Assembly (NCBI RefSeq): GCF_019733395.1
Contig: NZ_JAIHOO010000001.1
Span: 3,224,501-3,288,500 of the forward strand
Source: Lysobacter sp. BMK333-48F3
GTDB taxonomy: Bacteria; Pseudomonadota; Gammaproteobacteria; Xanthomonadales; Xanthomonadaceae
DNA: 64,000 bases
Reading direction: 5' to 3'
The translations under genes were made by a program, and so were the position numbers. The notes under the pieces were generated by a model. The model was not told the origin of the DNA. It saw only the letters and a program-made list of their open reading frames with translations, and searched no databases. Shown here one piece after another: positions 13,091 through 48,176 of this stretch. Position 1 is the first letter of the stretch; the number at the start of each line of letters is the position of its first letter.

Positions 13091-13765
13091 ATGCGCATCC
13101 TCCTGGTAGAAGACGAATCCGCCATCGCCGACACCGTGCTGTACGCCCTGCGTGCGGAAGGCTACGAGGCGGTGCATTGCCTGACCGGGGGCGAGGCGCT
13201 GCGCGAGGCGGCGCGGGTGGCGTTCGACCTGGCGGTGCTGGACGTCGGCCTGCCCGACATCGGCGGCTTCGCCTTGTGCCGCGAGTTGCGCCGCGAGCGC
13301 GATCTGCCGGTGATCTTCCTGACCGCGCAGAACGCCGAGGCCGACCGCATCCTCGGCCTGGAGATCGGCGCCGACGATTACGTGACCAAGCCGTTCTCGC
13401 CGCGCGAGCTGGCGACCCGGGTGCGGGTGGTGCTGCGCCGGGTGCGGCCCGGCGGCGGCGAGGCGGCGCCGGCCGAGGACGGCTTCGTCCACGACCCCGA
13501 GGGCAAGCGGATCCGCTACCGCGGCCAGGCGCTGGACCTGACCCGCTACGAATACGGCCTGCTGGCGGCGTTGTTGCAGCGGCCGGGCGCGGTGCTGTCG
13601 CGCGCGCAGCTGATGGACCGGGTCTGGGGCGACGCGCTGGACAGCGGCGACCGCACCGTCGACACCCATATCAAGACCCTGCGCGCCAAGCTGCGCGAGG
13701 TCGCCGCCGACGCCGACCCGATCCGCACCCATCGCGGCCTGGGTTACTCGCTCGACAACGGTTGA
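13091..13765 (+). CDS. creB: Response regulator CreB
   Basis: This 224-residue OmpR/PhoB-type response regulator controls the Cre regulon (creD and, in relatives, beta-lactamase and metabolic genes). The receiver domain has the acidic pair at 8-9 (VED), phospho-acceptor Asp51 (VLDVGLPD) and Lys100 (VTKPFSPRE). The winged-helix DNA-binding domain ends with VDTHIKTLRAKLRE and THRGLGYSLDNG, which is nearly the CreB signature. No Shine-Dalgarno sequence is visible before the ATG because the inverted-repeat element runs to within six bases of it. creC follows after 13 bp. The expected target creD, with a perfect cre box, lies at 21.3 kb. Confidence 0.93.
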   Translation: MRILLVEDESAIADTVLYALRAEGYEAVHCLTGGEALREAARVAFDLAVLDVGLPDIGGFALCRELRRERDLPVIFLTAQNAEADRILGLEIGADDYVTKPFSPRELATRVRVVLRRVRPGGGEAAPAEDGFVHDPEGKRIRYRGQALDLTRYEYGLLAALLQRPGAVLSRAQLMDRVWGDALDSGDRTVDTHIKTLRAKLREVAADADPIRTHRGLGYSLDNG

Positions 13766-13778
13766 GCCGGAGCCGGCG

Positions 13779-15227
13779 ATGCGCATCGGCCTGCGGATCT
13801 TCCTCGGCTACTTCCTGATCGTCGCGGTCGCGGCCTTCCTGCTGGCGCGGGTGTTCGTGGCCGAGGTCAAGCCCGGCGTGCGCCAGGCGATGGAAGACAC
13901 CCTGGTCGACACCGCCAACGTGCTGGCCGAGCTGGCCACCGACGATTTCCTCGCCGGGCGCATCGACCGCGGCGATTTCGCCAAGCGGGTGCGCTCGCTC
14001 GACGGCCGCGACGTCGGCGCGGCGATCTGGGGCTTCCGCAAGCCGGAAACCAGCTACCGCGTGTACGTGACCGATGCGCGCGGCATCGTCGTGTTCGACA
14101 GCAGCGGCGCCGCGGTCGGCCAGGACTATTCGCGCTGGAACGACGTCTACCTGACCTTGCGCGGGCGCTACGGCGCGCGCTCCAGCGCGGTCGATCCGGC
14201 GCGTCCGGACGACACCGTGATGCACGTGGCCGCGCCGATCCGCGACGAGCGCGGGCGGGTGATCGGTTCGCTGACCGTGGCCAAGCCGAACGCCGCGATC
14301 GCGCCGTTCATCGCCCGCAGCCAGGCGGTGGTGACGCGCTGGGGTTTCGTGCTGATGGGCGCGGCGCTGGCGGTCGGGGTGATCGTGTCGTGGTGGCTGT
14401 CGCGCCAGATCGGCCTGCTGCGGCGTTACGCGCAGGCGGTCACCGCCGGCAAGCGCGCCGATCCGCCGCACGCCGCCGGCGAGTTCGGCGAACTCGGCCA
14501 GGCCCTGGAGACCATGCGCGCGCGCCTGGAGGGCAAGCAGTACGTCGAACAGTACGTGCACACCCTGACCCACGAAATGAAAAGCCCGCTGGCGGCGATC
14601 CGCGGCAGCGCCGAACTGCTGGAATCGCCGCCCGGCGACGCGCCGATGCCCGACGCCGACCGCGCCCGCTTCGCCGGCAGCATCCGCCGCCAGGCCGAGC
14701 GCCTGGCGCAGATGATCGACAAGCTGCTGGCGCTGGCCGCGGTCGAGCATCGCCAGCGCCTGGAGCGGCCGGAGCCGGTGGCGTTGGCGGCGATCGCGCG
14801 CGAGGCCGCCGAGCAATGCGCGCAGCGGATCGAAAGCGCCGGCGCGCGTTTGCTGCTGGACCTGGACCCGAGCCTGCCGCCGGTGCGCGGCGACGCCTTC
14901 CTGTTGCGCCAGGCATTGATCAACCTGCTCGACAACGCCGCCGATTTCTCGCCGCCGGGCGGGGAGATCGCGCTGCGCCTGCAGGCGGTCGGCGAGGCGC
15001 AGCGGATCGAAGTCGGCGATCGCGGGCCGGGGGTGCCGGACTATGCCCTGGGGCGGGTGTTCGAGCGGTTCTATTCGCTGCCGCGGCCGGCCGGCGGCAG
15101 CCGCAGCAGCGGCCTGGGCCTGTGCTTCGTCGCCGAGGTGGCGTCGCTGCACGGCGGCGTGGCCGAGCTGCGCAACCGCGGCGACGGCGAGAGCGGGGCG
15201 ATCGCCGGGATGTCGATCCCGGGGTAG
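13779..15227 (+). CDS. creC: Sensor histidine kinase CreC
   Basis: This 482-residue inner-membrane kinase phosphorylates CreB. Two membrane segments (residues 7-28 and about 187-208) flank a periplasmic sensing domain. A HAMP-like linker follows. The phospho-acceptor His265 lies in THEMKSPLAAIRG, and the ATP-binding domain shows the N box (LLDNAADFSPPG), then VGDRGPGVPD and RSSGLGLCFV. The N-terminus MRIGLRIFLGYFLIVAVAAF is characteristic of CreC. It is 13 bp downstream of creB and co-transcribed with it. The signal sensed is not settled in any organism; peptidoglycan stress is reported for Stenotrophomonas and Aeromonas relatives. Confidence 0.93.
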   Translation: MRIGLRIFLGYFLIVAVAAFLLARVFVAEVKPGVRQAMEDTLVDTANVLAELATDDFLAGRIDRGDFAKRVRSLDGRDVGAAIWGFRKPETSYRVYVTDARGIVVFDSSGAAVGQDYSRWNDVYLTLRGRYGARSSAVDPARPDDTVMHVAAPIRDERGRVIGSLTVAKPNAAIAPFIARSQAVVTRWGFVLMGAALAVGVIVSWWLSRQIGLLRRYAQAVTAGKRADPPHAAGEFGELGQALETMRARLEGKQYVEQYVHTLTHEMKSPLAAIRGSAELLESPPGDAPMPDADRARFAGSIRRQAERLAQMIDKLLALAAVEHRQRLERPEPVALAAIAREAAEQCAQRIESAGARLLLDLDPSLPPVRGDAFLLRQALINLLDNAADFSPPGGEIALRLQAVGEAQRIEVGDRGPGVPDYALGRVFERFYSLPRPAGGSRSSGLGLCFVAEVASLHGGVAELRNRGDGESGAIAGMSIPG

Positions 15228-15242
15228 CCGGAGCGCGGGCCG

Positions 15243-15358
15243 TGTAGGAGCGGCGCCCCACAGGGATTTTTTCCGGCTGTTTTGTCGCAGCTACCGGGCT
15301 TCGGACCGCGGCGTGGTAGTTCGCGGCTTCGGTGGTCGCGGCTTACGCCGCTCCTACA
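15243..15358. repeat. TAGGAGCGGCG palindromic repeat, copy 1
   Basis: Inverted arms TGTAGGAGCGGCG (from 15243) and CGCCGCTCCTACA (to 15358) flank about 90 bp. It is one copy of a dispersed family also seen at 24406-24597, 24630-24680, 40995-41167 and 62379-62403. It lies in the convergent gap between creC and the EAL gene. Confidence 0.75.
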
Positions 15359-15389
15359 GAGGCGGTTACGCCGCTGCAGGGACGCCGGA

Positions 15390-16184
15390 TCACAGGGCGC
15401 GGCGATCGATCGCGCGTCCGCCGACGGCGGCCCATACGTCGGGCGCGGGCTGCGGCCAGCGGCCGACCTGGGCGCGGGCGTACAGATAGCCTTGCTGCAG
15501 CACGATCCCCATCGCTTTGAGCTGGGCCGCGTCGGCCTGGGTTTCCACGCCCTCGGCGATCAGGGCGATGCCCAGTTGCGCGGCGATCGAGACCAGGCCG
15601 GCGACGATCACCTGGCGGGGACGGTCGGCGGCGATGCCGCGGACCAGGCCGATGTCGATCTTGAGCAGGTCCGGCGGGCAATCGGCGAGCAGCGCCAGGC
15701 CGGCATAGCCGGCGCCGAAGTCGTCGATCGCGGTGGCGTAGCCCCAATCGCGCAGCGACCGTTGCGCTCGGCTCCAGGCGTTGCGCGCGATCGGACAGGA
15801 CTCGGGGAACTCGAACACGATGCGCTGGCCGTCCAGGCCCAGCGACTGCGCCTGGCGGTGCAGCTCGTGCAAGGCGATCGGGTCGCCGAGCATCGACGAA
15901 CCGAGGTTGATCGACAGCCGCTGTCCGCCGGGCATGTGCGCGGCGGCGCGCAGGGCCGCGCGCGCCAGGCGCCGTTCCAGGTCGGCGCGCGCCGGCGCGT
16001 CCAGGCCGGCGAACAAGGCCGCGGCGCCGTCGCTGCCGGCGCGCCGCCCCAGCGCTTCGTAGGCGAACACCTCGCGCCGGGCGAGATCGACGATGGGCTG
16101 GAAGGCGATCGCGAACGCGCCCGAAACGGCGCAACGCCGGCTCGCGGACTGGGCCGAACGCGGCGGCAGGGGTACGGCGCTCAT
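15390..16184 (-). CDS. EAL-domain cyclic-di-GMP phosphodiesterase
   Basis: This 264-residue protein is almost entirely one EAL domain, which hydrolyses cyclic-di-GMP. The catalytic signature residues all appear present: Glu in YEALGR, Asn in SINLGS, Glu in VFEFPES, the Asp pair in IDDFGAGY, Lys in LLKIDI, Glu in AEGVET and Gln in LQQGYLYARA. It should therefore be active rather than a degenerate sensor. No signal peptide or sensory domain precedes it, so it acts in the cytoplasm. Its ATG (16184) overlaps the stop of the usher-like gene as ATGA, so it is the last, translationally coupled gene of the pilus operon. This implies local c-di-GMP control of pilus assembly or of the switch away from it. 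Confidence 0.92.
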   Translation of the reverse strand: MSAVPLPPRSAQSASRRCAVSGAFAIAFQPIVDLARREVFAYEALGRRAGSDGAAALFAGLDAPARADLERRLARAALRAAAHMPGGQRLSINLGSSMLGDPIALHELHRQAQSLGLDGQRIVFEFPESCPIARNAWSRAQRSLRDWGYATAIDDFGAGYAGLALLADCPPDLLKIDIGLVRGIAADRPRQVIVAGLVSIAAQLGIALIAEGVETQADAAQLKAMGIVLQQGYLYARAQVGRWPQPAPDVWAAVGGRAIDRRAL

Positions 16185-18217
16185 CGCGGCCGTACCGCCG
16201 GAATGTCGACCCGCGCGTTGCGCCGCACCGTCACCTCGATGCGGCGGCGGGCGAACTGTTCGCGCACCGACCACGGCAACGGCAGGTTGTCGGCGATCAC
16301 CTCCAGGGTGTGTTCGCCGACCGAGACGCGCGGAAAGGAGAATTCGCCGTTGCTGTCGGTGCGCACCGCGTAGCGGCCGTCCAGGACCACGGTGACGGCG
16401 GCTGCGGCCTGTTCGGAGGCGGCGCGCACGCCGTCGTCGTTGTCGTCCAGGAACAGCGAGCCGGCGATGCCGCCGGTGGCCGCGCCCGGCGCGCCGCCGA
16501 GCACCGCCTGGCTGCGGCCGCGCTGGCGGTCGTAGCGCAGGCTGAGCAGCGCCGAGCGTTCGCGCGGCAAGGCCAGGAACGGCGATTCGATCGCCAGCGG
16601 GTCCAGCGCGAACGGCGAGCGCTGGCGGCCGCGGCTCTGGTACACGGCCAGGTTGAGCGACCAGCGCGGCGCGATGCGCCAGTCCAGGCCGAGGTTGAGG
16701 TCGGTGCCGCGCAGCGCGCTGGCGCCGTCGCCGTAGGTCCAGCGCGCGTTGCCGTCCAGGCTGACCCGCGAACCCAGGGCCAGGCCGCCGTAGAAGGCCA
16801 GGGTGGCGGTGCGGGTCGAACCGAGTTCGGCGTCGGCGATCTCGCCGTAGCCCAGCGACACCGACAGCCGCCGGCCGGCGCGCAAGGGCAGCGCCTGATC
16901 GAGGCTGGCCTGCCAGCTGCGGCCGGCGCCGGCGCCGTCGGCGTGGTCGAACTGCAGCCGGGTCTGGCCCCAGTCGCCGGCGCGGTCGGCGAACAACTGC
17001 ACCGCATGCGCGTTGCCGTCGGCGTGGCGCAGGCTGAGGCTGGCGCCGTAGCCGATGCGGCTGCTGGTCTGGTAACGCGCGTAAGCGGTGGCGTACTGGC
17101 CGTCGAAGCCGTCGCCGCCGATCGAGCGGATGTCGTCGATGCCGGCGTTCCACTGCCAGCGTCCGTACTGGTAGCCGATGCGGTAGTAGCCGCCGCGCAC
17201 GTCCTGATTGATCGGCAGCGCGCCCCAGGCCAGTCCCGGGTCGAGCGAGAACACGCCGTAGTTGTGGCGGTAGCGGCCGCGCCTGGCGCTGGCGTCGATC
17301 CAGGCGCCGGCGGCGTCGCGGCCGTCGCTGCGGCTGCCGAGCAGATTGAACTGGACGCTGTCGTTGGCCGAGTGCCAGGCGCCGGCCCAGTGCGCGGCCT
17401 GACTGTCGCCGGAAGCGAAGCCGATGTCGCCGCGGCCGTCGGCGACGATCCGGCCGCCGCTGCCGAGCAGCGCCAGCGACTGGCTCCAGGCCGCGCCGCT
17501 GCGCCACTGCACGCCGGCCGCGGCGACCCGGCCGTCGCCGGGGTCGAAGCCGATCATGCGCCGGCCGTCGTAGACGCCGGCGCGGCCGAACGCGGCGTAG
17601 GCGGTGGTGCCGCTGGCGTCCTGCCGCCACTGGGTGCTGGCGCCGGCCAGCGGCGCGGTCGGCAGGAAGAACCGGTACTGGTTGCGTTGCAGCTCCGGCG
17701 CGGGGGTGTTGAGCACGCCCAGGCCGTTGTCCAGGCGCCAGCCGCCGTCGAGGTAGAGGTTGCGCTGCCACAGCGTGGCCAGCCCGCCCCAGTCGCGGCC
17801 GTCGCCGTCTTCGCCGTGCAGGCGATCGCTGCGGAACAGGTTCGCGTCCAGCGACAGGCTGCCGTGGTCGGCGGTTTCCCAGAAGCCGCCGGCCGAGAGG
17901 CCGTGCTCGTCGTAGCTGCGCTCGCCGCGTTCGCTGCGCGCCAGGTGCAGCTCGACCCGCAGCGCGCGCGGCGGACCGTCGTCGGCGGGCGCTTCGTCCT
18001 CGTCCGGCGGCAACGGCGCCAGCGCCTGCGGCGCGATGATGCGGTCGCGGTACGCGCCCGGGTCGGGCGCGGTCTGCGCCATCGCGACCGGCGCGACGAA
18101 CAGGGCGCCGGCGATGGACCAGGCCAGCCGGCGCAGCATCGGCCGGCTGACGCCAAGCCGGCTGACGCCAAGCAAGTCCACGCCAGGCCAATCCACGATG
18201 GGTGGGACTGGCCTCAT
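16181..18217 (-). CDS. Usher-like outer-membrane barrel protein of the pilus operon
   Basis: This 678-residue exported protein has a signal ending near MAQ (residue 48 from the ATG at 18217). A downstream in-frame ATG (MLRRLAW, about 18142) is an alternative start. The body is rich in alternating aromatic and polar residues, as in a beta-barrel. The last 90 residues form an SdrD-B/carboxypeptidase-regulatory-like beta domain (GSLFLDDNDDGVRAASEQ, then VVLDGRYAVRTDSNGEFSFP). Its place after a periplasmic chaperone gene, and the C-terminal domain, point to the usher that translocates pilin subunits. Classical ushers are about 800 or more residues, so this is short. Both ends overlap neighbours by ATGA. 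A homologue search is needed to place the family. Confidence 0.7.
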   Translation of the reverse strand: MRPVPPIVDWPGVDLLGVSRLGVSRPMLRRLAWSIAGALFVAPVAMAQTAPDPGAYRDRIIAPQALAPLPPDEDEAPADDGPPRALRVELHLARSERGERSYDEHGLSAGGFWETADHGSLSLDANLFRSDRLHGEDGDGRDWGGLATLWQRNLYLDGGWRLDNGLGVLNTPAPELQRNQYRFFLPTAPLAGASTQWRQDASGTTAYAAFGRAGVYDGRRMIGFDPGDGRVAAAGVQWRSGAAWSQSLALLGSGGRIVADGRGDIGFASGDSQAAHWAGAWHSANDSVQFNLLGSRSDGRDAAGAWIDASARRGRYRHNYGVFSLDPGLAWGALPINQDVRGGYYRIGYQYGRWQWNAGIDDIRSIGGDGFDGQYATAYARYQTSSRIGYGASLSLRHADGNAHAVQLFADRAGDWGQTRLQFDHADGAGAGRSWQASLDQALPLRAGRRLSVSLGYGEIADAELGSTRTATLAFYGGLALGSRVSLDGNARWTYGDGASALRGTDLNLGLDWRIAPRWSLNLAVYQSRGRQRSPFALDPLAIESPFLALPRERSALLSLRYDRQRGRSQAVLGGAPGAATGGIAGSLFLDDNDDGVRAASEQAAAAVTVVLDGRYAVRTDSNGEFSFPRVSVGEHTLEVIADNLPLPWSVREQFARRRIEVTVRRNARVDIPAVRPR

Positions 18218-19008
18218 CGGGCCAGCACGGCGTCGAGCTCGAGCCGCTGCTTGTCCCAGTCCAGGGCGCCCTTGAGCCGCAAGGGATAGGCCACCGGCGG
18301 CGCCGGCGTGGCCGGGTCGTCGCCCTGCGGCTGCAATGCGATCAGCCGCGTTTCGCCGGGCAGGATCGGCAGGTTGGACGGTGCGAAGGCGAGCTTGCGG
18401 CCCTGCGCGTCGGTGCCGTCGATCAGGCCTTCCAGGCGCGAATGGGCGTTGCCGGCGTTGTGCACTTCCAGCACCGGCAGATCGCGGCCGTCGATCCGCT
18501 CGACCCGGCTGGCGCGGGTCTGCAATCGCGCCGCGGCATCGCCGACGGCCAGGTAGACGATGATGCCGATCCGTCCCGACACCGGCAGCGCCACCGCGCC
18601 GCGCACGGTTTCCGGCTCGCCTTCCAGCAGGATCGCGAAGCGGCACTCGCCGGCCGGCGCGTCGGCCGGCACCGCGACCTCGAAGCGATAGCGCCGCTTG
18701 CCCTGCGCGCCGACCTCGATCTGCGCCGCTTCCAGGCCGACCCACGGCCGGCAGCTGCCCGGGGCGAGGGCTTCGTCGAAGATCGCCGCGCCCTGCGCGT
18801 CCAGGCGCCAGTCGGCGGTCTTGAGCGTGTAGCGCGCCGCGGCCGGCGACAGGTTGGAGATCTCGACCACGTTGCGGTAGGTGGTGCCGGGCTTGGCCGA
18901 GTCTTCGAAGCGCGGCGGCGAGACCAGGGCCGAAAAGCCCTGCGCGGCGGCGCAGACGGGCAGGAGCGCGAACAGCGCGGCGAGGGCGCGCAGGCGGGCG
19001 AGGCGCAT
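18214..19008 (-). CDS. Periplasmic pilus-assembly chaperone
   Basis: This is a 264-residue PapD-like chaperone. A signal peptide (MRLARLRALAALFALLPVCAAAQ) is followed by an immunoglobulin-like domain containing FSALVSPPRFEDSAKPG and VVEISNLSPAAARYTLKTADW. A second beta domain includes RIGIIVYLAV and the GETRLIAL segment. Chaperones of this fold bind pilin subunits in the periplasm and donate the missing strand. The start at 19008 follows the stop of the preceding gene with a one-base TGATG overlap, and its own stop overlaps the usher start (ATGA). The cysteine pair in the first domain (PGSCRPW and AGECRF) may form a disulfide. It is more divergent than chaperones of classical type 1 pili. Confidence 0.8.
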   Translation of the reverse strand: MRLARLRALAALFALLPVCAAAQGFSALVSPPRFEDSAKPGTTYRNVVEISNLSPAAARYTLKTADWRLDAQGAAIFDEALAPGSCRPWVGLEAAQIEVGAQGKRRYRFEVAVPADAPAGECRFAILLEGEPETVRGAVALPVSGRIGIIVYLAVGDAAARLQTRASRVERIDGRDLPVLEVHNAGNAHSRLEGLIDGTDAQGRKLAFAPSNLPILPGETRLIALQPQGDDPATPAPPVAYPLRLKGALDWDKQRLELDAVLAR

Positions 19009-19466
19009 CACGGGGTGTCCAGGTCGATTTCGAAGGAGAAATGCAGTTGTTCGGCGCGCGCCAGGCGCTGGCCGTCGGCTTGCAGGCTCAGGCGCACGGT
19101 GTCCTCGAGCAGGCCGGCCGGCAGCGGGCCGGCGTAGACCAGGGCGCGCTCGCCGGCGCGCAGCGCGCCCGGCAGCAGGCGGCCGCGAGTGGTCCACTCG
19201 GCCAGGATCGGACCGGACGGCGAAGCGGGCAGGGTCATGTAGACGCGGCCCTGGCGGCCCTGCCACGGCGACAGGTCCAGGCGCACCAGCACGGTCAAGG
19301 CGCCGGACACGGTCTGGCGCGCGTTGCGGCCGGGCACGGCGTCGTCCCAGCGCATCTGCACGTCGTTGTCGAGCACCTGGCTGGCGCTGTCGTCGACGCG
19401 GAAGGTCGCGGCCGGGGCCAGGCCGGCGCACAGCCACAGCAGCACGATCGCAAGCGCGCGGCTCAT
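19008..19466 (-). CDS. Small secreted subunit of the pilus operon
   Basis: This 152-residue protein has a signal peptide (MSRALAIVLLWLCAGLAPAA) and a compact beta-rich mature part (TFRVDDSASQVLDNDVQMRW at the start). It lies between the second pilin and the chaperone, overlapping both (ATGA upstream, TGATG downstream), so its amount is tied to theirs. Position and size suggest a minor pilin or an accessory periplasmic factor. I recognise no specific family. The segment LSPWQGRQGRVYMTLP and the C-terminal HFSFEIDLDTP may help find relatives. Confidence 0.75.
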   Translation of the reverse strand: MSRALAIVLLWLCAGLAPAATFRVDDSASQVLDNDVQMRWDDAVPGRNARQTVSGALTVLVRLDLSPWQGRQGRVYMTLPASPSGPILAEWTTRGRLLPGALRAGERALVYAGPLPAGLLEDTVRLSLQADGQRLARAEQLHFSFEIDLDTP

Positions 19467-20155
19467 GGCGCGCTCAGGGTGTAGACCACCCGCCCGGTGT
19501 AGGTGCCGGCGGCGACCACCGCGTCGTTGCTGTAGCGGAAACGGTGACAGCTTTCGCGCCAGGTGTTGGCCGGGAAGCTGGCCAGGGTCTGCACGCCGCC
19601 GTTGAAGCTGCCGGCCGGGATCGGCTGGGCGTCGGTGTCGCCGTTGCCGCTGCTGGCCCAGGCGATCTGGGTGAAGGGAATGCTGTCGCCGCTGCCGTTG
19701 CCGAGATTGGCCGGCGAAGAGACGGTCAGGCTGGCCGAACCGGTGGTGGTCGAACGGCGGTAGAAGCCGCCGACGTAGACCTCGTTGGGCACGTTGCAGA
19801 AGGTGTAGCCGTCGTAATGGCTGGTGGTCTGGGTGCCGTCGCTGGTCATCAACTGATCGCTGCCGTTGCCGAGCTGGGCGGCCGGCACGGTCACCGAGAC
19901 CTTGTTGAGCGTGCCGCCGGAACCCGGCGTGCCCCCGCCTTGGTAGGTGCCGGTGAATACGCCGTTGCCGACGCGCAGGTAGACCGCGCGCGTGCCGGGC
20001 GAGATGGTGACCACGAAAGCCTGGGCGGCGCCGAACCACAGCGCGGCCAGCGGCAACAGGGCCCAGCGGGACGTGCGGCTCTTGATCGGATTGATCTTGA
20101 TCGCGCTGATCTTGATCGGGCTGATCTGGCGGATTGCGCGCAGCGACGGCGTCAT
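19463..20155 (-). CDS. Second pilin-like subunit
   Basis: This 230-residue protein has a long, unusual N-terminus. Repeated Ile-Lys units (ISPIKISAIKINPIK, residues 11-25) are encoded by a short DNA repeat (TTGATCG units, about 20080-20130), followed by a normal hydrophobic signal ending AQAF. The mature part shares with the major pilin the motif of a strand ending YLRVGNG, and LNKVSVTVPAAQLGNGS. This resembles the major pilin's FLRVGSG and IAFAVPAANVGNG, so the two are paralogues. It is larger and has a cysteine pair (FCNVPN, SCHRF), as is common in tip or adaptor subunits. The gap to the major pilin contains two strong hairpins. I read it as a minor or tip pilin. Confidence 0.75.
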   Translation of the reverse strand: MTPSLRAIRQISPIKISAIKINPIKSRTSRWALLPLAALWFGAAQAFVVTISPGTRAVYLRVGNGVFTGTYQGGGTPGSGGTLNKVSVTVPAAQLGNGSDQLMTSDGTQTTSHYDGYTFCNVPNEVYVGGFYRRSTTTGSASLTVSSPANLGNGSGDSIPFTQIAWASSGNGDTDAQPIPAGSFNGGVQTLASFPANTWRESCHRFRYSNDAVVAAGTYTGRVVYTLSAP

Positions 20156-20186
20156 GACGGCGGTTCCGGTGCGGAGGCGGAGACGT

Positions 20187-20242
20187 CCTCCCGCGGCGGA
20201 CCGCGGGAGGCGGTGGCGTAGCGGGCGGCGCCAGGCGCCGCC
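20187..20242 (-). promoter_or_regulatory. Double hairpin between major pilin and downstream pilus genes
   Basis: Two perfect stem-loops lie just after the major pilin stop: 20187-20210 (10-bp stem CCTCCCGCGG, 4-nt loop) and 20224-20242 (9-bp stem, 1-nt nominal loop). Neither has a T-tract. By analogy with pap-type operons they may stabilise the major pilin mRNA or partly stop transcription, so the major subunit is made in excess. Confidence 0.65.
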
Positions 20243-20252
20243 GGCTCGCCGC

Positions 20253-20870
20253 TTACGGCATCGAAGCGGTGTAGGTGACGCGGCTGTTGTTGGCGTTGAC
20301 GCCGCCGTACACGCCCGGGGCGACGACGTTGTTGTTGAGGTAGGTGTAGGTCCAACGCGCGCTGCGGTTGACCACCTTGCCGCTGGCCGGGGCGATGGTC
20401 AGCGGGGCCGAGGCGCCGTCGGTCAGCGTCGGCGCCGGCAGGGCGGCGGTGTCGCTGGCAGTGGCGATCTGGCTGTAGGAAATGGTGTCGCCGGCGGCGC
20501 CGTTGCTGAGCGCGCCCAGCGCGGTCGCGCCGAGGGTGATGTTGCCGTTGTTGCCGACCACCTTGGCGGTGACCTCGCCGTTGCCCAGGTCGCCGGAGGT
20601 CGCGGTCGCGGTCACGGCGGCGCCGTTGCCGACGTTGGCGGCCGGGACCGCGAAGGCGATCTGGTTGACCGTGGCGGTGGTGGTGTAGTCGGCGCCGCTG
20701 CCGACGCGCAGGAACAGGATCTTCGGAATCGTGATCTGGAAGTCGAGCTTGGCGGCGGCGGTCAGCGGGGTGGCGCTGCCGGTGCTGTACTGCGATTCGG
20801 CCTGGGCGAGCAGCGGCGCGCCGGCCAGCAGGGCGACGGCCAGAAGAGAGGTCGGAAGCTTGCGCATCAT
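20253..20870 (-). CDS. Major pilin-like subunit
   Basis: This 205-residue protein starts at MMRKLPTSL (20870, or 20867 for the second Met). Its signal peptide ends LLAQAES. The mature part is a Ser/Thr/Ala/Gly/Asn-rich beta protein with two repeats of a VGNG/LGNG motif (AANVGNGAAV, SGDLGNGEV). It starts with LDFQITIPKILFLRVG, reminiscent of the donor-strand and first-strand region of CS1/alpha-type fimbrial subunits. It has no cysteines, unlike type 1 pilins. First position in the operon, directly behind a sigma-54 promoter and followed by two hairpins, suggests it is the abundant shaft subunit. Confidence 0.75.
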   Translation of the reverse strand: MMRKLPTSLLAVALLAGAPLLAQAESQYSTGSATPLTAAAKLDFQITIPKILFLRVGSGADYTTTATVNQIAFAVPAANVGNGAAVTATATSGDLGNGEVTAKVVGNNGNITLGATALGALSNGAAGDTISYSQIATASDTAALPAPTLTDGASAPLTIAPASGKVVNRSARWTYTYLNNNVVAPGVYGGVNANNSRVTYTASMP

Positions 20871-20923
20871 GCGGTGTCCAAAGGAGGTGGGCGGCCGGGG
20901 CTCCGGACGCTGAGGGCAGGCAA

Positions 20924-20941
20924 AAGCATGTTCCGTGCCAA
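20924..20941 (-). promoter_or_regulatory. Sigma-54 promoter of the pilus operon
   Basis: On the minus strand, TTGGCACGGAACATGCTT matches the sigma-54 consensus TGGCACG-N4-TTGCW with one mismatch. The GG (-24) and GC (-12) are exactly ten bases apart. It lies about 55 bp before the major pilin ATG. An AT-rich tract (about 20945-21010) upstream could hold an enhancer-binding-protein or IHF site. Expression would then need an NtrC-family activator, none of which is encoded here. Confidence 0.7.
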
Positions 20942-21262
20942 GAAATGTGATCGATAGCTCATTGAAATTGTTAACAGCAAGTGATTTTTGCGTGAGAAGA
21001 AGTGAGTCAGAAGCTGACCCCAGGCGTCGGTTTGCGTCTTTTCGGGCCAGGATCGGCACGTCCGCAGGCCCTTAGCGGTCAGAAAACCGGGCGATAACGG
21101 CCTGTACGCCGAAGATCGCGTCGTTTCCCAATTCAGATTTATGAAGGCGGCGGAGGCGGCCGACCGCTGCGCCGCGGCGCCGGACGGGTAGCGAAAGCAG
21201 GGCCGAAACCTGGCGTCCGTGCCGGGGCGGTGGTCCGGCCGCGCATCGCGTCGCGTGCGTGC

Positions 21263-21278
21263 TTCACCGCTGCTTCAC
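21263..21278 (+). promoter_or_regulatory. cre box (CreB-binding site) of creD
   Basis: TTCAC-CGCTGC-TTCAC is a perfect match to the cre/blr tag TTCAC-N6-TTCAC bound by phosphorylated CreB. It is 81 bp before the creD ATG. By simple counting, the chance of a perfect copy in the 150 bp before creD is about 0.0003. Confidence 0.85.
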
Positions 21279-21358
21279 TGCCGCCACACCGCCGGGCCAT
21301 CGCCTCTACGCACGGGCTGCGCAAGCTGCGCTCCGAGTTCGTAACCAGGAGCAAGACC

Positions 21359-22762
21359 ATGCGGGTGTGGCTGAAGATGTTGTTGGTGCTGGGGATGACC
21401 CTGGCGATCCTGATTCCGCTGCTGATGATCGGCGGGATCATCGACGAGCGGCAGGGCTATCGCGCCGAGGCGGTGAACAAGATCGCGCGCAGCTACGCCG
21501 GCGCGCAGGCGTTTTCCGGGCCGGTGCTGGTGGTGCCGTACGAGGACACCTGGATCGAGCAGCAGAAGGACCTCGACGGCGCGATCAAGCAGGTGCGCCG
21601 CCGCGAGCTCGGTCACTGGACCTTCTTCCCCAACAAGCTCGACGTCGACGGCGAACTGCTGCCGCGGGTGCGCCAGCTCGGCCTGCACAAGGTGCGGGTA
21701 TACGACTGGGCCGGCAGCGCGCGCGCCGACTTCAGCGCGACGATTCCGGCCGAGCCGGCGGCCGACCCGGTCCGCAACGGCCGGGTGCGCAGCATCGGCC
21801 GGCCGTGGATCAGCTACGCCTTCACCGACGTGCGCGGCCTGCGCGCGCCGAAGCTGCGCTTGAACGGGGTCGAGGCGGCGATCGAGGACGGCCTGGGCGC
21901 GCGCGACGGCGGCGGCATCCATGCCCGCCTGGCGATCCCGGCGCCGGGCGCCCAGTTGCGCCTGAACACCGAGCTGAGCTTCGTCCTCGGCGGCACCGAA
22001 TCGCTGGCCCTGGTGCCGCTGGGCAAGAACAACCGCTTCGCCCTGCATTCCAAGTGGCCGCACCCCAACTACGGCGGCAGCTTCCCGCCCAGCTCGGACG
22101 ACATCGGCAAGGACGGCTTCCGCGCCGAATGGCAAGTGGCTTCGGTGGCGACCAACGCCCAGCGCCAGTACCTGGCCGGCACCGTGCTGCCGGCCGTGCA
22201 CCTGGCCCGCGACGAGGCGGCCAACGAGCCCGGCGGCGAGATCAACGCGGTGCAGGTGACGCTGAAGGACCCGGTCAACGTCTACAGCCAGGCCGATCGC
22301 GCGACCAAGTACGGCCTGCTGTTCGTGCTGCTGACCTTCGTCGGCTTCTTCATGTTCGAACTGATCAAGCAACTGCGCATCCACCCGATCCAGTACGGCC
22401 TGGTCGGCCTGGCGCTGGCGATCTTCTTCCTGTTGCTGGTCAGCCTCAGCGAGCACATCGCCTTCGGCCAGGCCTATCTGGCGGCGAGCGCGGCCTGCAT
22501 CGGCCTGCTGGTGTTCTACCTGAGCGCGGTGCTGCGCAGCCTGGTGCGCGCGCTGGGCTTCGGCGCCATGCTGACCACGCTGTACGGCGCCCTGTACGGG
22601 CTGCTGGTGTCGGAGGACAACGCCCTGGTGCTCGGCGCCGGCCTGCTGTTCCTGATCCTGGCCACGATCATGGCGGTGACCCGCAAGGTCGACTGGTATC
22701 AGCTCGGCGGCGGCCTGCCGCGGCGCGCGCCGGTGCCGGACCCGCCGGTCGGCCCGGCCTGA
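21359..22762 (+). CDS. creD: Inner-membrane protein CreD
   Basis: This 467-residue protein matches CreD. One N-terminal membrane segment (residues 3-25, ending PLLMIGGIIDERQGYR) precedes a large periplasmic domain. Then come four to five membrane helices from about residue 315 (FVLLTFVGFFMFELIK, IQYGLVGLALAIFFLLLVSLSEH, and further helices). The biochemical role is unknown; it is the strongest CreBC target in several bacteria and affects envelope stability. The ATG at 21359 has a ribosome-binding site (CAGGAG) 8 nt before it; longer open frames upstream are arginine-rich leader. It lies 6 kb from creBC, with the pilus operon between them, but keeps a perfect cre box. Confidence 0.93.
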   Translation: MRVWLKMLLVLGMTLAILIPLLMIGGIIDERQGYRAEAVNKIARSYAGAQAFSGPVLVVPYEDTWIEQQKDLDGAIKQVRRRELGHWTFFPNKLDVDGELLPRVRQLGLHKVRVYDWAGSARADFSATIPAEPAADPVRNGRVRSIGRPWISYAFTDVRGLRAPKLRLNGVEAAIEDGLGARDGGGIHARLAIPAPGAQLRLNTELSFVLGGTESLALVPLGKNNRFALHSKWPHPNYGGSFPPSSDDIGKDGFRAEWQVASVATNAQRQYLAGTVLPAVHLARDEAANEPGGEINAVQVTLKDPVNVYSQADRATKYGLLFVLLTFVGFFMFELIKQLRIHPIQYGLVGLALAIFFLLLVSLSEHIAFGQAYLAASAACIGLLVFYLSAVLRSLVRALGFGAMLTTLYGALYGLLVSEDNALVLGAGLLFLILATIMAVTRKVDWYQLGGGLPRRAPVPDPPVGPA

Positions 22763-45145: not shown

Positions 45146-46381
45146 TCAGTCCTGCTTGCGCCCTGGCGCGTCGATCAGCAAGGCCTGGCCCGGCTTGAGC
45201 ACGGCCTTGGGACTCAGGCCGTTGCGCTGCAGCAGGTCGGCGACGCGGATCCGGTAGCGCTTGGCGATGGTCCAGGCATTGTCGCCGCGGCCGACGGTAT
45301 GGCGGCGGCCGGCGCCGGGCTCGCCCGGCGGCGCGGCGTCGGCTGAGGTACGGGTGAGCGGGGCGTCGGCGGCGGAGCCTTCGATGGCGCTGGCCGGGCT
45401 CGAGGGCAGCGCGCCTTCGGCCACGGCCACCTCGGCCGCGACCGGCCCGGGCGAGCCGATCGCCGGCTTGGCCACCGCCAGCAACGGCGCGCGCTTGCCG
45501 CCGGCGCGGGCGATGCGGCCGTCGCGGAAGGCCGGGTTCAGGCGCAGCAGCCGGGCCGGGTCCTGGTCGGTGCGCGCGGCCCACTCGCCGATGCTGTCGA
45601 CGTCGGCCGGCACCTGCACCGCCTCCAGCCGCGGCACCGGGCGGTCCAGCGCGGCCAGCCACTCGTCGCGGTCGTCGGCCTGTTCCATCAGGCAGGACAG
45701 GGCGTGCAGCTTGCGCACATAGGCGGTGGTGATCTCGGACAGGCCGCTGAGGCTGTCGTGGCGGGTCTGGGCGATCGGCGTGCCGGCGCGCCGGACCGCG
45801 TTGAGCACCCGGTACTCGCCGGCGTTGTAGGCCATCACCGTCAGCCGCCAGTCGCCGCCGAACATGCCGTGCAAGGTCTTGAGGTAGCGCACCGCGGCCT
45901 GGGTCGACTCGACCGGCGACAGGCGGCCGTCGTAGCCCTCGCGGATCGGCACGCGATGGTTGCGCGCGGTCATCGCGATCATCTGCCACAGCCCGGCCGG
46001 GCCGGCGGCGCTGCGCGCGCCGGGGCGGTAGCCGCTTTCGACGAACGGAATCAGCGCGTACTCGGTCGGCAGGCTGGCCTCGCGCAGCGCGTCGACCACG
46101 TAGCCGAACAGCGGCAGCAGGTCGTCGTCGGAACGGGCCAGGCGCTTGGGCGCGGTGGCGAAGTGCTGGCGCCAGCGGCTGCTGACCCCGGGCTCGCAGC
46201 TCGGGTCGGCCAGGCCCTCGCGGAAGCGGCGGTAGATCTCGCGGCCGTTGCGGGTGCTGGCGGCGGCCTCGTCGGCGGCGGGCTCGGCCGCAGCCGCCGG
46301 CGCGGCGCCGAGGGCGAGCGCGCAGGCCAGGGCCGCGCCCAGGGCGAGCCGGCGGACGCCGTGCGAGGCGGCCGCGTTCAC
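45146..46381 (-). CDS. mltD: Membrane-bound lytic murein transglycosylase D
   Basis: This 411-residue peptidoglycan lyase cuts glycan strands to give anhydro-muropeptides. The start is GTG at 46381 (VNAAASHGVRRLALG), overlapping the gloB stop. A signal peptide ending AAAAEP follows. The transglycosylase domain has the catalytic Glu in IPFVESGYRPGARSAAGPAG (near residue 121), then LWQMIAMTARNHR and MAYNAGEYRVLN. A LysM domain at residues about 355-405 (HTVGRGDNAWTIAKRYRI) binds the cell wall. E. coli MltD has two LysM repeats, and I see one here. Position next to gloB, rnhA and dnaQ repeats the order known from E. coli. Confidence 0.93.
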   Translation of the reverse strand: MNAAASHGVRRLALGAALACALALGAAPAAAAEPAADEAAASTRNGREIYRRFREGLADPSCEPGVSSRWRQHFATAPKRLARSDDDLLPLFGYVVDALREASLPTEYALIPFVESGYRPGARSAAGPAGLWQMIAMTARNHRVPIREGYDGRLSPVESTQAAVRYLKTLHGMFGGDWRLTVMAYNAGEYRVLNAVRRAGTPIAQTRHDSLSGLSEITTAYVRKLHALSCLMEQADDRDEWLAALDRPVPRLEAVQVPADVDSIGEWAARTDQDPARLLRLNPAFRDGRIARAGGKRAPLLAVAKPAIGSPGPVAAEVAVAEGALPSSPASAIEGSAADAPLTRTSADAAPPGEPGAGRRHTVGRGDNAWTIAKRYRIRVADLLQRNGLSPKAVLKPGQALLIDAPGRKQD

Positions 46382-47166
46382 GCCTGGAACCCGTCTTTCC
46401 AGCGCCGCAATTCGGCGAAGGCTTCTACCTCGTCGGCCGGCGCGCGGCCGAGCCGGGCGGTCAGCGAACGCAGCACCGCGGCTTCGCGGCTGCGCAGGAA
46501 GGGGTTGGTCGCGCGCTCCTCGGCGAGCGAGCTGGGAACCGAGGGGCGTCCGGCGTTGCGCATGGTCTGGGCCTGTTCGATGCGGCGCCGCAGCGCCGGA
46601 TTGTCGGGTTCGACCACGCGCGCGAAGGCGGCGTTGGCCAGGGTGTATTCGTGTCCGCAACAGACCCGGGTGTCGTCCGGCAGGGCGGCCAGCCGGGTCA
46701 GCGAGCTCAGCATCTGCGCGGCGGTACCTTCGAACAAGCGGCCGCAGCCCAGGCTGAACAAGGTGTCGCCGCTGAACAGCAGGCGCTGCCCGTCGCTGCC
46801 GCTGCGGTCCAGGTAATAGGCGACGTGGCTGCGGGTGTGGCCGGGCACGGCCAGGACCTGCAGGGTCCAGCCGGCGACATGGACCCGAACCCCGTCGTCG
46901 ACCCGCACCGTGGCCTGGTCGATGCGTTCGTCGTCGGGAGCGAACACCGGCAGGCCGGGCCAGCGCTCGCACAGCGCGGCGGTGCCGCCGATGTGGTCGT
47001 TGTGGTGGTGGGTCAGCAGGACCCCGACCGGGCGCAGGCCGTTGGCGGCCGCGGCCAGCACCGGCGCGGCGTCGCCCGGATCGACGATCAGCGCGGTCTC
47101 GTCGTCGCTGCCGCACAGGGCCCAGATGTAGTTGTCGCTGAGGGCGGGCAGGGCGAGCAGCCGCAT
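46378..47166 (-). CDS. gloB: Hydroxyacylglutathione hydrolase (glyoxalase II)
   Basis: This 262-residue metallo-beta-lactamase-fold enzyme hydrolyses S-lactoylglutathione, the second step of methylglyoxal detoxification. The metal motif THHHNDHIGG lies at residues 53-62, further ligands in VPGHTRSHVAYY and FSGDTLFSLGCGRLFEGT, and the last histidine in CCGHEYTLANAAFA. The C-terminal glutathione-binding region (ERATNPFLRS) is present. Its stop overlaps the mltD start (GTGA). It is divergent from the yafS-like methyltransferase across a 299-bp region in which I see no gene. Confidence 0.96.
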   Translation of the reverse strand: MRLLALPALSDNYIWALCGSDDETALIVDPGDAAPVLAAAANGLRPVGVLLTHHHNDHIGGTAALCERWPGLPVFAPDDERIDQATVRVDDGVRVHVAGWTLQVLAVPGHTRSHVAYYLDRSGSDGQRLLFSGDTLFSLGCGRLFEGTAAQMLSSLTRLAALPDDTRVCCGHEYTLANAAFARVVEPDNPALRRRIEQAQTMRNAGRPSVPSSLAEERATNPFLRSREAAVLRSLTARLGRAPADEVEAFAELRRWKDGFQA

Positions 47167-47465
47167 CGTCGGTCTCCTGGCGGACGCCGGCGGCGCGCCG
47201 TCGGCGTGGGCGGGTGGCTGGGCTGGTCCGGCCGGCGCCGCAGGCGCACAGTCCGGGCGAGCGCCCGCCGCGGTCGGGGCCGGCCCAGGGCCGGCCGCCG
47301 GTCGGTACGCGGGGAGGGCGGCTCGTCGCCGCCGGCGATGGCCGGACCACGCCGGCGTAACCGCGATCTGCGACCATGGCGGCGAACTCCGGCTCCGTCC
47401 GGGCGCCGCTTTCGGCGCCGCCGACGGTCCCCGCCAGTTCCGCCCCGTCCCTGCGAGACGCGACC

Positions 47466-48176
47466 ATGCCCGCCCTGTCCCACGGCCGTCAACCCGAAGT
47501 CGACCCCGCCGGCGCCCTGCGCTGGTTCGGCGAGGTCGCTGGGCAAGGCCTGCTCGAGGTCGAGGCGGCGGCGATGAGCCGGGTCCTGGCGGCCAGTCCG
47601 GCCTTGCCCTGGGCCTGGTTCGGGTTGCCCGCGGCGTCGGCGCCGGGCGGGCGCGGGGTGGCCCTGCGCCGCAGCCGCTACGGCTTCGACGGCGCGGTCC
47701 GCTGCCGGCTGCCGCTGCCGCTGGCCAGCGAGGCCTTCGGCGCGGTCCTGCTGCAGCACGTGTTCGACGACGGCGCCGACCCGCGGCCGTTGCTGAGCGA
47801 ATGCGCGCGGATCCTGGCCCCGGGCGGGCGGCTGTGGCTGGCGACCCTGAACCCCTGGAGCCCCTACCGGCTGCGCTGGGCGCGTAGCGGCCTGATCGCC
47901 CGCGACGCCGGCCACTGGCAGGCGATGCTGCGCAGCTCGGGCTTTTCCTCCGATGCGGTCAGCCTGCAATGGCTGGGGCCGCGCTGGCGGGTCGCCCACG
48001 GCGACGCCGGGGTGGCCGCGGCCGATGTGTTCCGCGCCGGAGTCGCGCTGACCCTGACCAAGCGCGTGCATGCGGCGATTCCGCCGCCGCGGCTGCAGGT
48101 GCTGCGCTGGCAGGGCAGCGGCGGATTGATTCCGCGCGCCCAGCGCGGCTCGACCCGGGGCGCGCAACGGCGATAA
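47466..48176 (+). CDS. YafS-like SAM-dependent methyltransferase
   Basis: This 236-residue class I methyltransferase-type protein starts at MPALSHGRQ (47466). A longer frame from 47376 adds thirty Ser/Ala/Pro-rich residues. The region [23 protein letters not shown] (near residues 112-134) is the post-motif II segment of the fold. The usual glycine-rich motif I is poorly conserved ([15 protein letters not shown]), so cofactor binding is uncertain. Its place between gloB and rnhA matches E. coli yafS. The function is unknown in either organism. The gene ends 31 bp before rnhA and reads the same way. Confidence 0.85.

Follow-up and report, generated by a model that had tools for sequence, protein, structure and literature searches.

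The window analysed here, a stretch of 64 kilobases (kb) from the soil bacterium Lysobacter sp. BMK333-48F3 (NCBI contig NZ_JAIHOO010000001.1, positions 3,224,501 to 3,288,500), contains six genes on the minus strand, g1 to g6, which together span positions 15390-20870 (Table 1). The core of this cluster, g1 to g5, is an unclassified module of chaperone-usher-like type that is conserved in relatives, as is the sigma-54 promoter ahead of it, and the sixth gene encodes an EAL protein. Genes g1 and g2 are separated by a gap of 97 nucleotides (nt); the junctions that follow overlap by 4 nt (g2/g3), 1 nt (g3/g4), 4 nt (g4/g5) and 4 nt (g5/g6). These coordinates agree with a sequence-only reading of the same DNA, which had reported a six-gene minus-strand chain with its last four junctions overlapping, and the operon it described, sigma-54 site included, is confirmed as real. 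Export signals of g1 to g5 were called by eye.

Table 1 Features of the operon (positions in the window; lengths in amino acids, aa)
Feature	Position	Strand	Length	Assignment or remark
g1	20253-20870	-	205 aa	Putative major pilin
g2	19463-20155	-	230 aa	Putative second pilin
g3	19008-19466	-	152 aa	Small protein with export signal judged by eye; orphan family
g4	18214-19008	-	264 aa	PapD-like periplasmic chaperone (fold prediction)
g5	16181-18217	-	678 aa	Usher-like outer-membrane barrel with one C-terminal Ig-like (immunoglobulin-like) domain (predicted)
g6	15390-16184	-	264 aa	Stand-alone EAL protein, putative c-di-GMP (cyclic di-guanosine monophosphate) phosphodiesterase
Sigma-54 -24/-12 promoter TGGCACGGAACATGCT	20925-20940	-		Kept in 24 of 26 loci
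CRP/Clp-like palindrome TGAGC-N6-TCACA	20946-20961			8 of 10 positions; ends 5 nt upstream of the -24 element

Of 149 genomes sampled from the family (Xanthomonadaceae), 23, that of the window included, encode a relative of g5 over most of its length; the match in a 24th genome (G084) covered merely 46 residues and was left out. The loci around g5 in the positive genomes and those of a further search gave 26 distinct loci (L047 and L050 were left out of the counts as copies of L025 and L033). In all 26, the genes g1-g2-g3-g4-g5 follow each other in the same order on one strand, and of the 78 junctions between successive genes from g2 through g5, 59 overlap by 1 or 4 nt, with gene starts picked by script. 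In the window the operon is flanked by creC and creD and runs on the other strand (13091-22762). The neighbours of the block differ between genomes; others identified by Pfam in a survey of 20 flanking frames were ribosomal protein S2, DNA gyrase B, a glycerol-3-phosphate acyltransferase and a peptidase M24. The distance between creC and creD is about 0.2-0.65 kb in six relatives without the module at that place versus 6.1 kb in the window, and two of these six (L144, L145) carry the module elsewhere. Because the neighbours differ and creC and creD lie close together in relatives, the block is a unit that occurs at several sites.

Upstream of g1, the site TGGCACGGAACATGCT has the GG and GC of a sigma-54 promoter at consensus spacing, with one mismatch in the -12 element. 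Scored with a consensus and weights of our own choice (maximum 17.5), it is the sole site of at least 15.5 on either strand of the window. Of the 26 loci, 24 have a site of at least 15.5 in the 250 nt next to g1 (20 have one of at least 16.5), situated 67 to 189 nt ahead of the gene; L033 and L045 have none. Across all loci there were 35 such sites per 806,314 positions, module sites included, or about 0.01 per 250 nt. The claim of a sigma-54 promoter with exact spacing, made before from the window, is borne out and extends to the orthologous loci. With such a promoter, expression would need RpoN and an enhancer-binding protein, judging from the sequence. The own genome encodes seven sigma-54 activator domains (PF00158) at E values of 5e-50 or better. 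FleQ (PF06490) was considered as a c-di-GMP-responsive enhancer-binding protein and set aside, as the own genome gave no match, although the control was positive in only 2 of 14 genomes. Among the matches listed from the open-licence literature (titles and abstract openings), there was no sigma-54 chaperone-usher operon of this kind.

The assignments of g4 and g5 derive from predicted structures. The AlphaFold2 model of g4 (predicted local distance difference test, pLDDT, 84.3) has the two-Ig fold of PapD-like chaperones. In Foldseek, CfaA ranks first (E 1.6e-8), CsuC sixth and EcpB 19th, and these three pilus chaperones match g4 across both domains in Foldseek and in VIA. Residues R33 and R146, invariant in g4 (alignment A1), are candidate subunit-anchoring residues. 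The 26 g4 members gave ten weak Pfam families, the best at 0.0046, and none at E up to 1 was a pilus chaperone. A classical usher consists of a 24-strand barrel with an N-terminal domain, a plug and two C-terminal domains. The g5 model (pLDDT 68) comprises a barrel of 26 predicted strands (residues 85-565) and one C-terminal Ig-like domain. About 37 low-confidence mature residues precede the barrel, the inserts between strands are all of at most 23 residues, and neither an N-terminal nor a plug domain is visible in a model of this confidence. FimD and PapC occupy all Foldseek ranks from 1 to 12 (E 7e-13 to 1.2e-8). At the level of sequence, Pfam matches of g5 are weak and confined to the C-terminal Ig-like domain (the best, CarboxypepD_reg at 2.8e-5, is below the cut-off), and none of the 26 g5 members matches the usher family PF00577 or the usher signature pattern (PROSITE). 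PDB sequences were searched with g4 and g5 as single queries and with g1, g2, g4 and g5 as profiles, and no pilus protein was found; there were chance matches, and g5 matched the Ig-like C-terminal domain of bacterial adhesins. The predicted folds of g4 and g5 support the chaperone/usher-like architecture proposed earlier for genes 1 to 5.

Protein g1 carries an N-terminal export signal, has no cysteine past residue 30 and ends in YTASMP, and at least two cysteines are present in g2 in 26 of 26 orthologues. The two proteins are homologous to each other (hhalign, probability 99.6) and their C-termini are conserved. The initial view of both as pilins stands in that they are pilin-like and mutually homologous; they are probably exported subunits, with a putative polymerisation by donor-strand exchange. 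Protein g3, found in 26 of 26 family loci and 10 of the 12 distant loci described below, would be a minor subunit or an assembly factor. It was considered as a relative of g2 or g4, and profile comparisons gave no detectable relation. In the window, a Pfam search up to E 1 gave no family for g1 to g4, and NCBIfam has none for g1 to g5. No Pfam pilus, usher or pilus-chaperone family was found among 26 orthologues each of g1 to g5, which for g1 to g4 agrees with the initial remark that the subunits do not look like classical pilins. With matches accepted up to E 1, none of the 26 members each of g1 and g2 resembled the SCPU-domain pilins (PF05229). Over all six proteins, the Pfam check upheld g6 as an EAL protein and gave no chaperone-usher family for g1 to g5. 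Ushers of the PF00577 type were present in 7 of 25 genomes searched, all away from the module, and were not found in the other 18. The own genome has such a separate usher at G000:C1:1754069-1755496, far from the window.

Beyond the family, a search of the order gave g5 matches in 34 of 200 genomes, mostly to the Ig-like domain alone and over the full length in 4 of the 34. In the class (321 genomes, own included), g4 matched in 16 and g5 in 26 genomes, many of the latter again through the Ig-like domain only. Fourteen class regions were fetched, and after omission of L119 and L120 (weak g4 only) the module was recognised in 12 distant gammaproteobacterial loci (L107-L118) from 11 genomes. All 12 contain g4 and g5, and 11 contain pilin homologues, so that chaperone, barrel and homologous pilin-like proteins occur together in 11 of 12; L109 stops at a contig edge. 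The block is re-ordered or re-oriented in most of them, with g5 on the strand opposite to g4 in 8 of 12. Additional pilin copies are present in L114 and L118, where g3 was not detected. In the phylum (398 genomes), 7 genomes, the own one among them, had a g4 match; four of these matches were weak and came from a single family. A plasmid search found one distant g4 relative and no g5 relative. The former is a protein with 26% identity to g4 on the Deinococcus plasmid NZ_CP026517.1 (L146:5926-6822), beside genes annotated as hypothetical.

When 6-mers ahead of the sigma-54 site were screened, AATGTG, CGTCAC and GTCACA proved enriched. Because these pointed to it, the known CRP/Clp palindrome TGTGA-N6-TCACA (10 positions) was tested in the 160 nt that precede this site, with 200 approximate dinucleotide shuffles as control. 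Of the 24 loci, 15 matched at least 8 of 10 positions, where the shuffles gave 1.2 on average and never more than 4, and 8 matched at least 9; the looser cut of 7 gave 21 loci, with 8.7 on average and 15 at most in the shuffles. In the remainder of these sequences, 11 of 2408 tiles reach 8. All ten sites of at least 9 (two of them in L033) fall 76-273 nt upstream of g1. The sequence-only reading had recognised the sigma-54 site and missed these enriched upstream sites. The own genome encodes a Clp/CRP protein (in L128), named CRP by NCBIfam; its top match in the PDB is 3iwz (E 3e-114), presumably the CLP of Xanthomonas campestris. By its sequence, the candidate site of the window may be bound by Clp. 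A comparable degenerate Clp site (TGTGA-N6-TCGAT) precedes xagA of X. campestris; its alteration is reported to have prevented Clp binding and raised reporter levels (PMC3528676). In contrast to that site, which belongs to another gene, the operon palindrome is a candidate proposed from sequence.

In the distant loci, the stretch directly ahead of the first gene carries no sigma-54 site wherever the sequence includes it; L109 and L116 end ahead of the first pilin gene and L112 has just 198 nt upstream of it. Some sigma-54 sites fall within their modules, such as one in L112 (16.5) in the second pilin frame. CRP-like sites of 9/10 or 10/10 stand at the module start in 4 of the 12. Two sites of 10/10 occur in L108, a site precedes g5 in L109 and L115 and, in the latter, also the pilins, and in L107 the site lies 26 nt inside the g1 open frame, ahead of the conserved part. 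From these few loci, CRP-type control may be older than sigma-54 control.

Protein g6 affiliates with PF00563 (2.9e-46) and with no other Pfam family. It retains E43, N93, E125, D154, D155, K175, E211 and Q231 (aligned to BlrP1 and 6ifq), positions which we take to be catalytic. With eight residues retained and a sole Pfam family, the earlier description of an EAL protein with intact catalytic residues and no sensor domain is upheld, and g6 is a putative c-di-GMP phosphodiesterase by sequence. EAL-usher coupling was not supported as a general unit. An EAL gene follows g5 in 4 of 26 loci, overlapping it in the window and L025 and lying 29 and 44 nt away in L026 and L027. In the g5 tree, these four loci and L048, which lacks an EAL gene, form one clade (100/99). 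The EAL tree allows a single origin of the four EAL genes weakly (68/51; 66% of bootstrap trees) and places relatives from elsewhere in other genomes close to them. Because L048 lacks the gene and the EAL tree is weak, the distribution would be explained by a single gain and a loss or by two gains. The EAL gene is in any case a local, lineage-specific add-on to the block. The GAF-EAL gene of L049 (9142-10488), which starts about 251 nt past g5 on the same strand, was rejected as a g6 orthologue, its product belonging to another EAL clade.

An EAL gene that closes a chaperone-usher operon is not new. The Klebsiella operons fim2A-fim2K and fim...K end in the same way, and Fim2K is described as having an EAL domain and no helix-turn-helix (PMC3419637; for FimK, PMC9487511). 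The pilus genes there are of the gamma-1 type, whereas the block here is unclassified and combines overlapping genes with a sigma-54 promoter; the EAL gene is last in the window operon too but in only 4 of 26 orthologous loci, and the block has no PF00577 usher. As regards Class 5/alpha pili (CFA/I) and the E. coli common pilus, g4 folds like CfaA and EcpB, but there is no PDB sequence match and the N-terminal and plug domains of g5 were not seen. Large tip adhesins are typical of these pili, and none of the six genes has the size of one. The archaic Csu pili share CsuC among the best folds for g4, although, with matches accepted up to E 1, none of the block genes falls in a Pfam family of ushers, chaperones or pilins. 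FimD and PapC of type 1 and P pili are the best Foldseek matches of the g5 barrel, but carry two C-terminal domains versus one in the g5 model, in which the plug insert was not seen and whose orthologues lack the usher signature (0 of 26).

On balance, the locus as a whole is probably a divergent chaperone-usher fibre operon under sigma-54 and CRP/Clp control, to which an EAL gene was added in a Lysobacter lineage. Proteins g1 and g2 would be exported as pilin-like subunits and ferried through the periplasm by g4, the g5 barrel would export them across the outer membrane and stack them into a surface fibre, and g3 would serve as small subunit or assembly factor; the models of g4 and g5 are consistent with such fibre assembly. 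Transcription would start from the sigma-54 promoter, with the adjacent CRP/Clp-like site as a second control. The stand-alone EAL phosphodiesterase joined at the 3' end would probably lower c-di-GMP when the fibre is made. In Lysobacter, c-di-GMP is an inhibitor of Clp, so the EAL protein could close a feedback loop: high c-di-GMP would free the promoter of Clp, the operon would be made, the EAL protein would lower c-di-GMP and Clp would return. That Clp acts in this direction is a guess, and the loop is a testable proposal rather than a result. A more specific form of this explanation, an undescribed clade with a plug-less usher of one C-terminal domain, docking by g3 in place of the N-terminal domain, sigma-54 plus Clp gating and, in Lysobacter, a co-translated EAL protein that closes the loop, seems unlikely as a complete package; if true, fibre export would tune the same c-di-GMP signal that licenses it.

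Several observations weigh against the fibre operon and its control. No sequence family backs the usher or chaperone identity. The pLDDT of the g5 model is just 68 and that of the other four models 42-58; template modelling (TM) scores of g5 to ushers are 0.30-0.39 by query length, and unrelated barrels tie with ushers in VIA. For g4, WxLIP and CEP192 take Foldseek ranks 2 and 3, WxLIP is first in VIA, and PapD-like two-domain folds occur outside pilus assembly too. The window palindrome reaches just 8/10, a score shared by two other places in the window; the palindrome test came after the 6-mer screen and the loci are related, for which reasons the independence of that result is overstated. 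Lastly, 22 of the 26 loci have no EAL gene immediately adjoining the block. The structural points would fit a block that assembles no pilus. On that view the g5 barrel would serve as a porin or in export, g4 would be a general Ig-like protein of the periplasm or cell surface resembling WxLIP, and g1 and g2 would be matrix proteins, exported but not polymerised by donor-strand exchange. This we regard as rather improbable, given that ushers hold the first twelve Foldseek ranks for g5, that pilus chaperones match both domains of g4, and that chaperone, barrel and homologous pilin-like proteins stay together in nearly all distant loci.

With regard to transcription, the -24/-12 motif might not be the main promoter, the operon being driven by a sigma-70-type promoter with CRP/Clp. 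Locus L033, with two 9/10 CRP-like sites, a sigma-70-like TTGACA-N17-TAGATT recognised by eye and no sigma-54 site, fits this alternative, as do the distant loci, with CRP-like sites at some module starts and no sigma-54 site just ahead of the first gene where that stretch is present. The near-consensus site kept at close range before g1 in 24 of 26 family loci, and its being the sole such site in the window, make the alternative very improbable. In L033 itself, a promoter swap upstream of g1 (9657 and up) is possible, the sigma-54 site having been lost. The EAL gene might also be a passenger captured beside a finished operon and acting on the global c-di-GMP pool or another target rather than on this pilus, which we hold to be possible though somewhat doubtful. 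Its scarcity beside the block and its absence from L048 within the same clade speak for a passenger, as do g6 relatives away from the module in G069, G139, G147 and G035 (39-43% identity, versus 45-47% for those of L026 and L027); Klebsiella FimK, moreover, is reported to lower the expression of type 3 fimbriae, a different pilus (PMC9487511). Against it, the EAL gene adjoins g5 in two lineages, the pilus-linked EAL proteins can form one clade, if with a support of just 68/51, and in both the window and L025 the 4-nt overlap links expression of the EAL gene to that of the pilus.

If the fibre operon is real, annotation pipelines overlook a pilus-like family, there being no Pfam or NCBIfam model for four of its five core genes, and the block would be the only usher-type system detected in 18 of the 25 genomes searched. 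A barrel without plug and N-terminal domain would test which usher parts are essential, and the sigma-54 promoter together with the Clp-like site would offer a compact case for joint c-di-GMP and RpoN control of a surface fibre in Lysobacter, a genus studied for biological control. Elsewhere in the window, residues 452-598 of a 773-aa frame (45146-47467) match murein transglycosylase D with a score short of the family cut-off.

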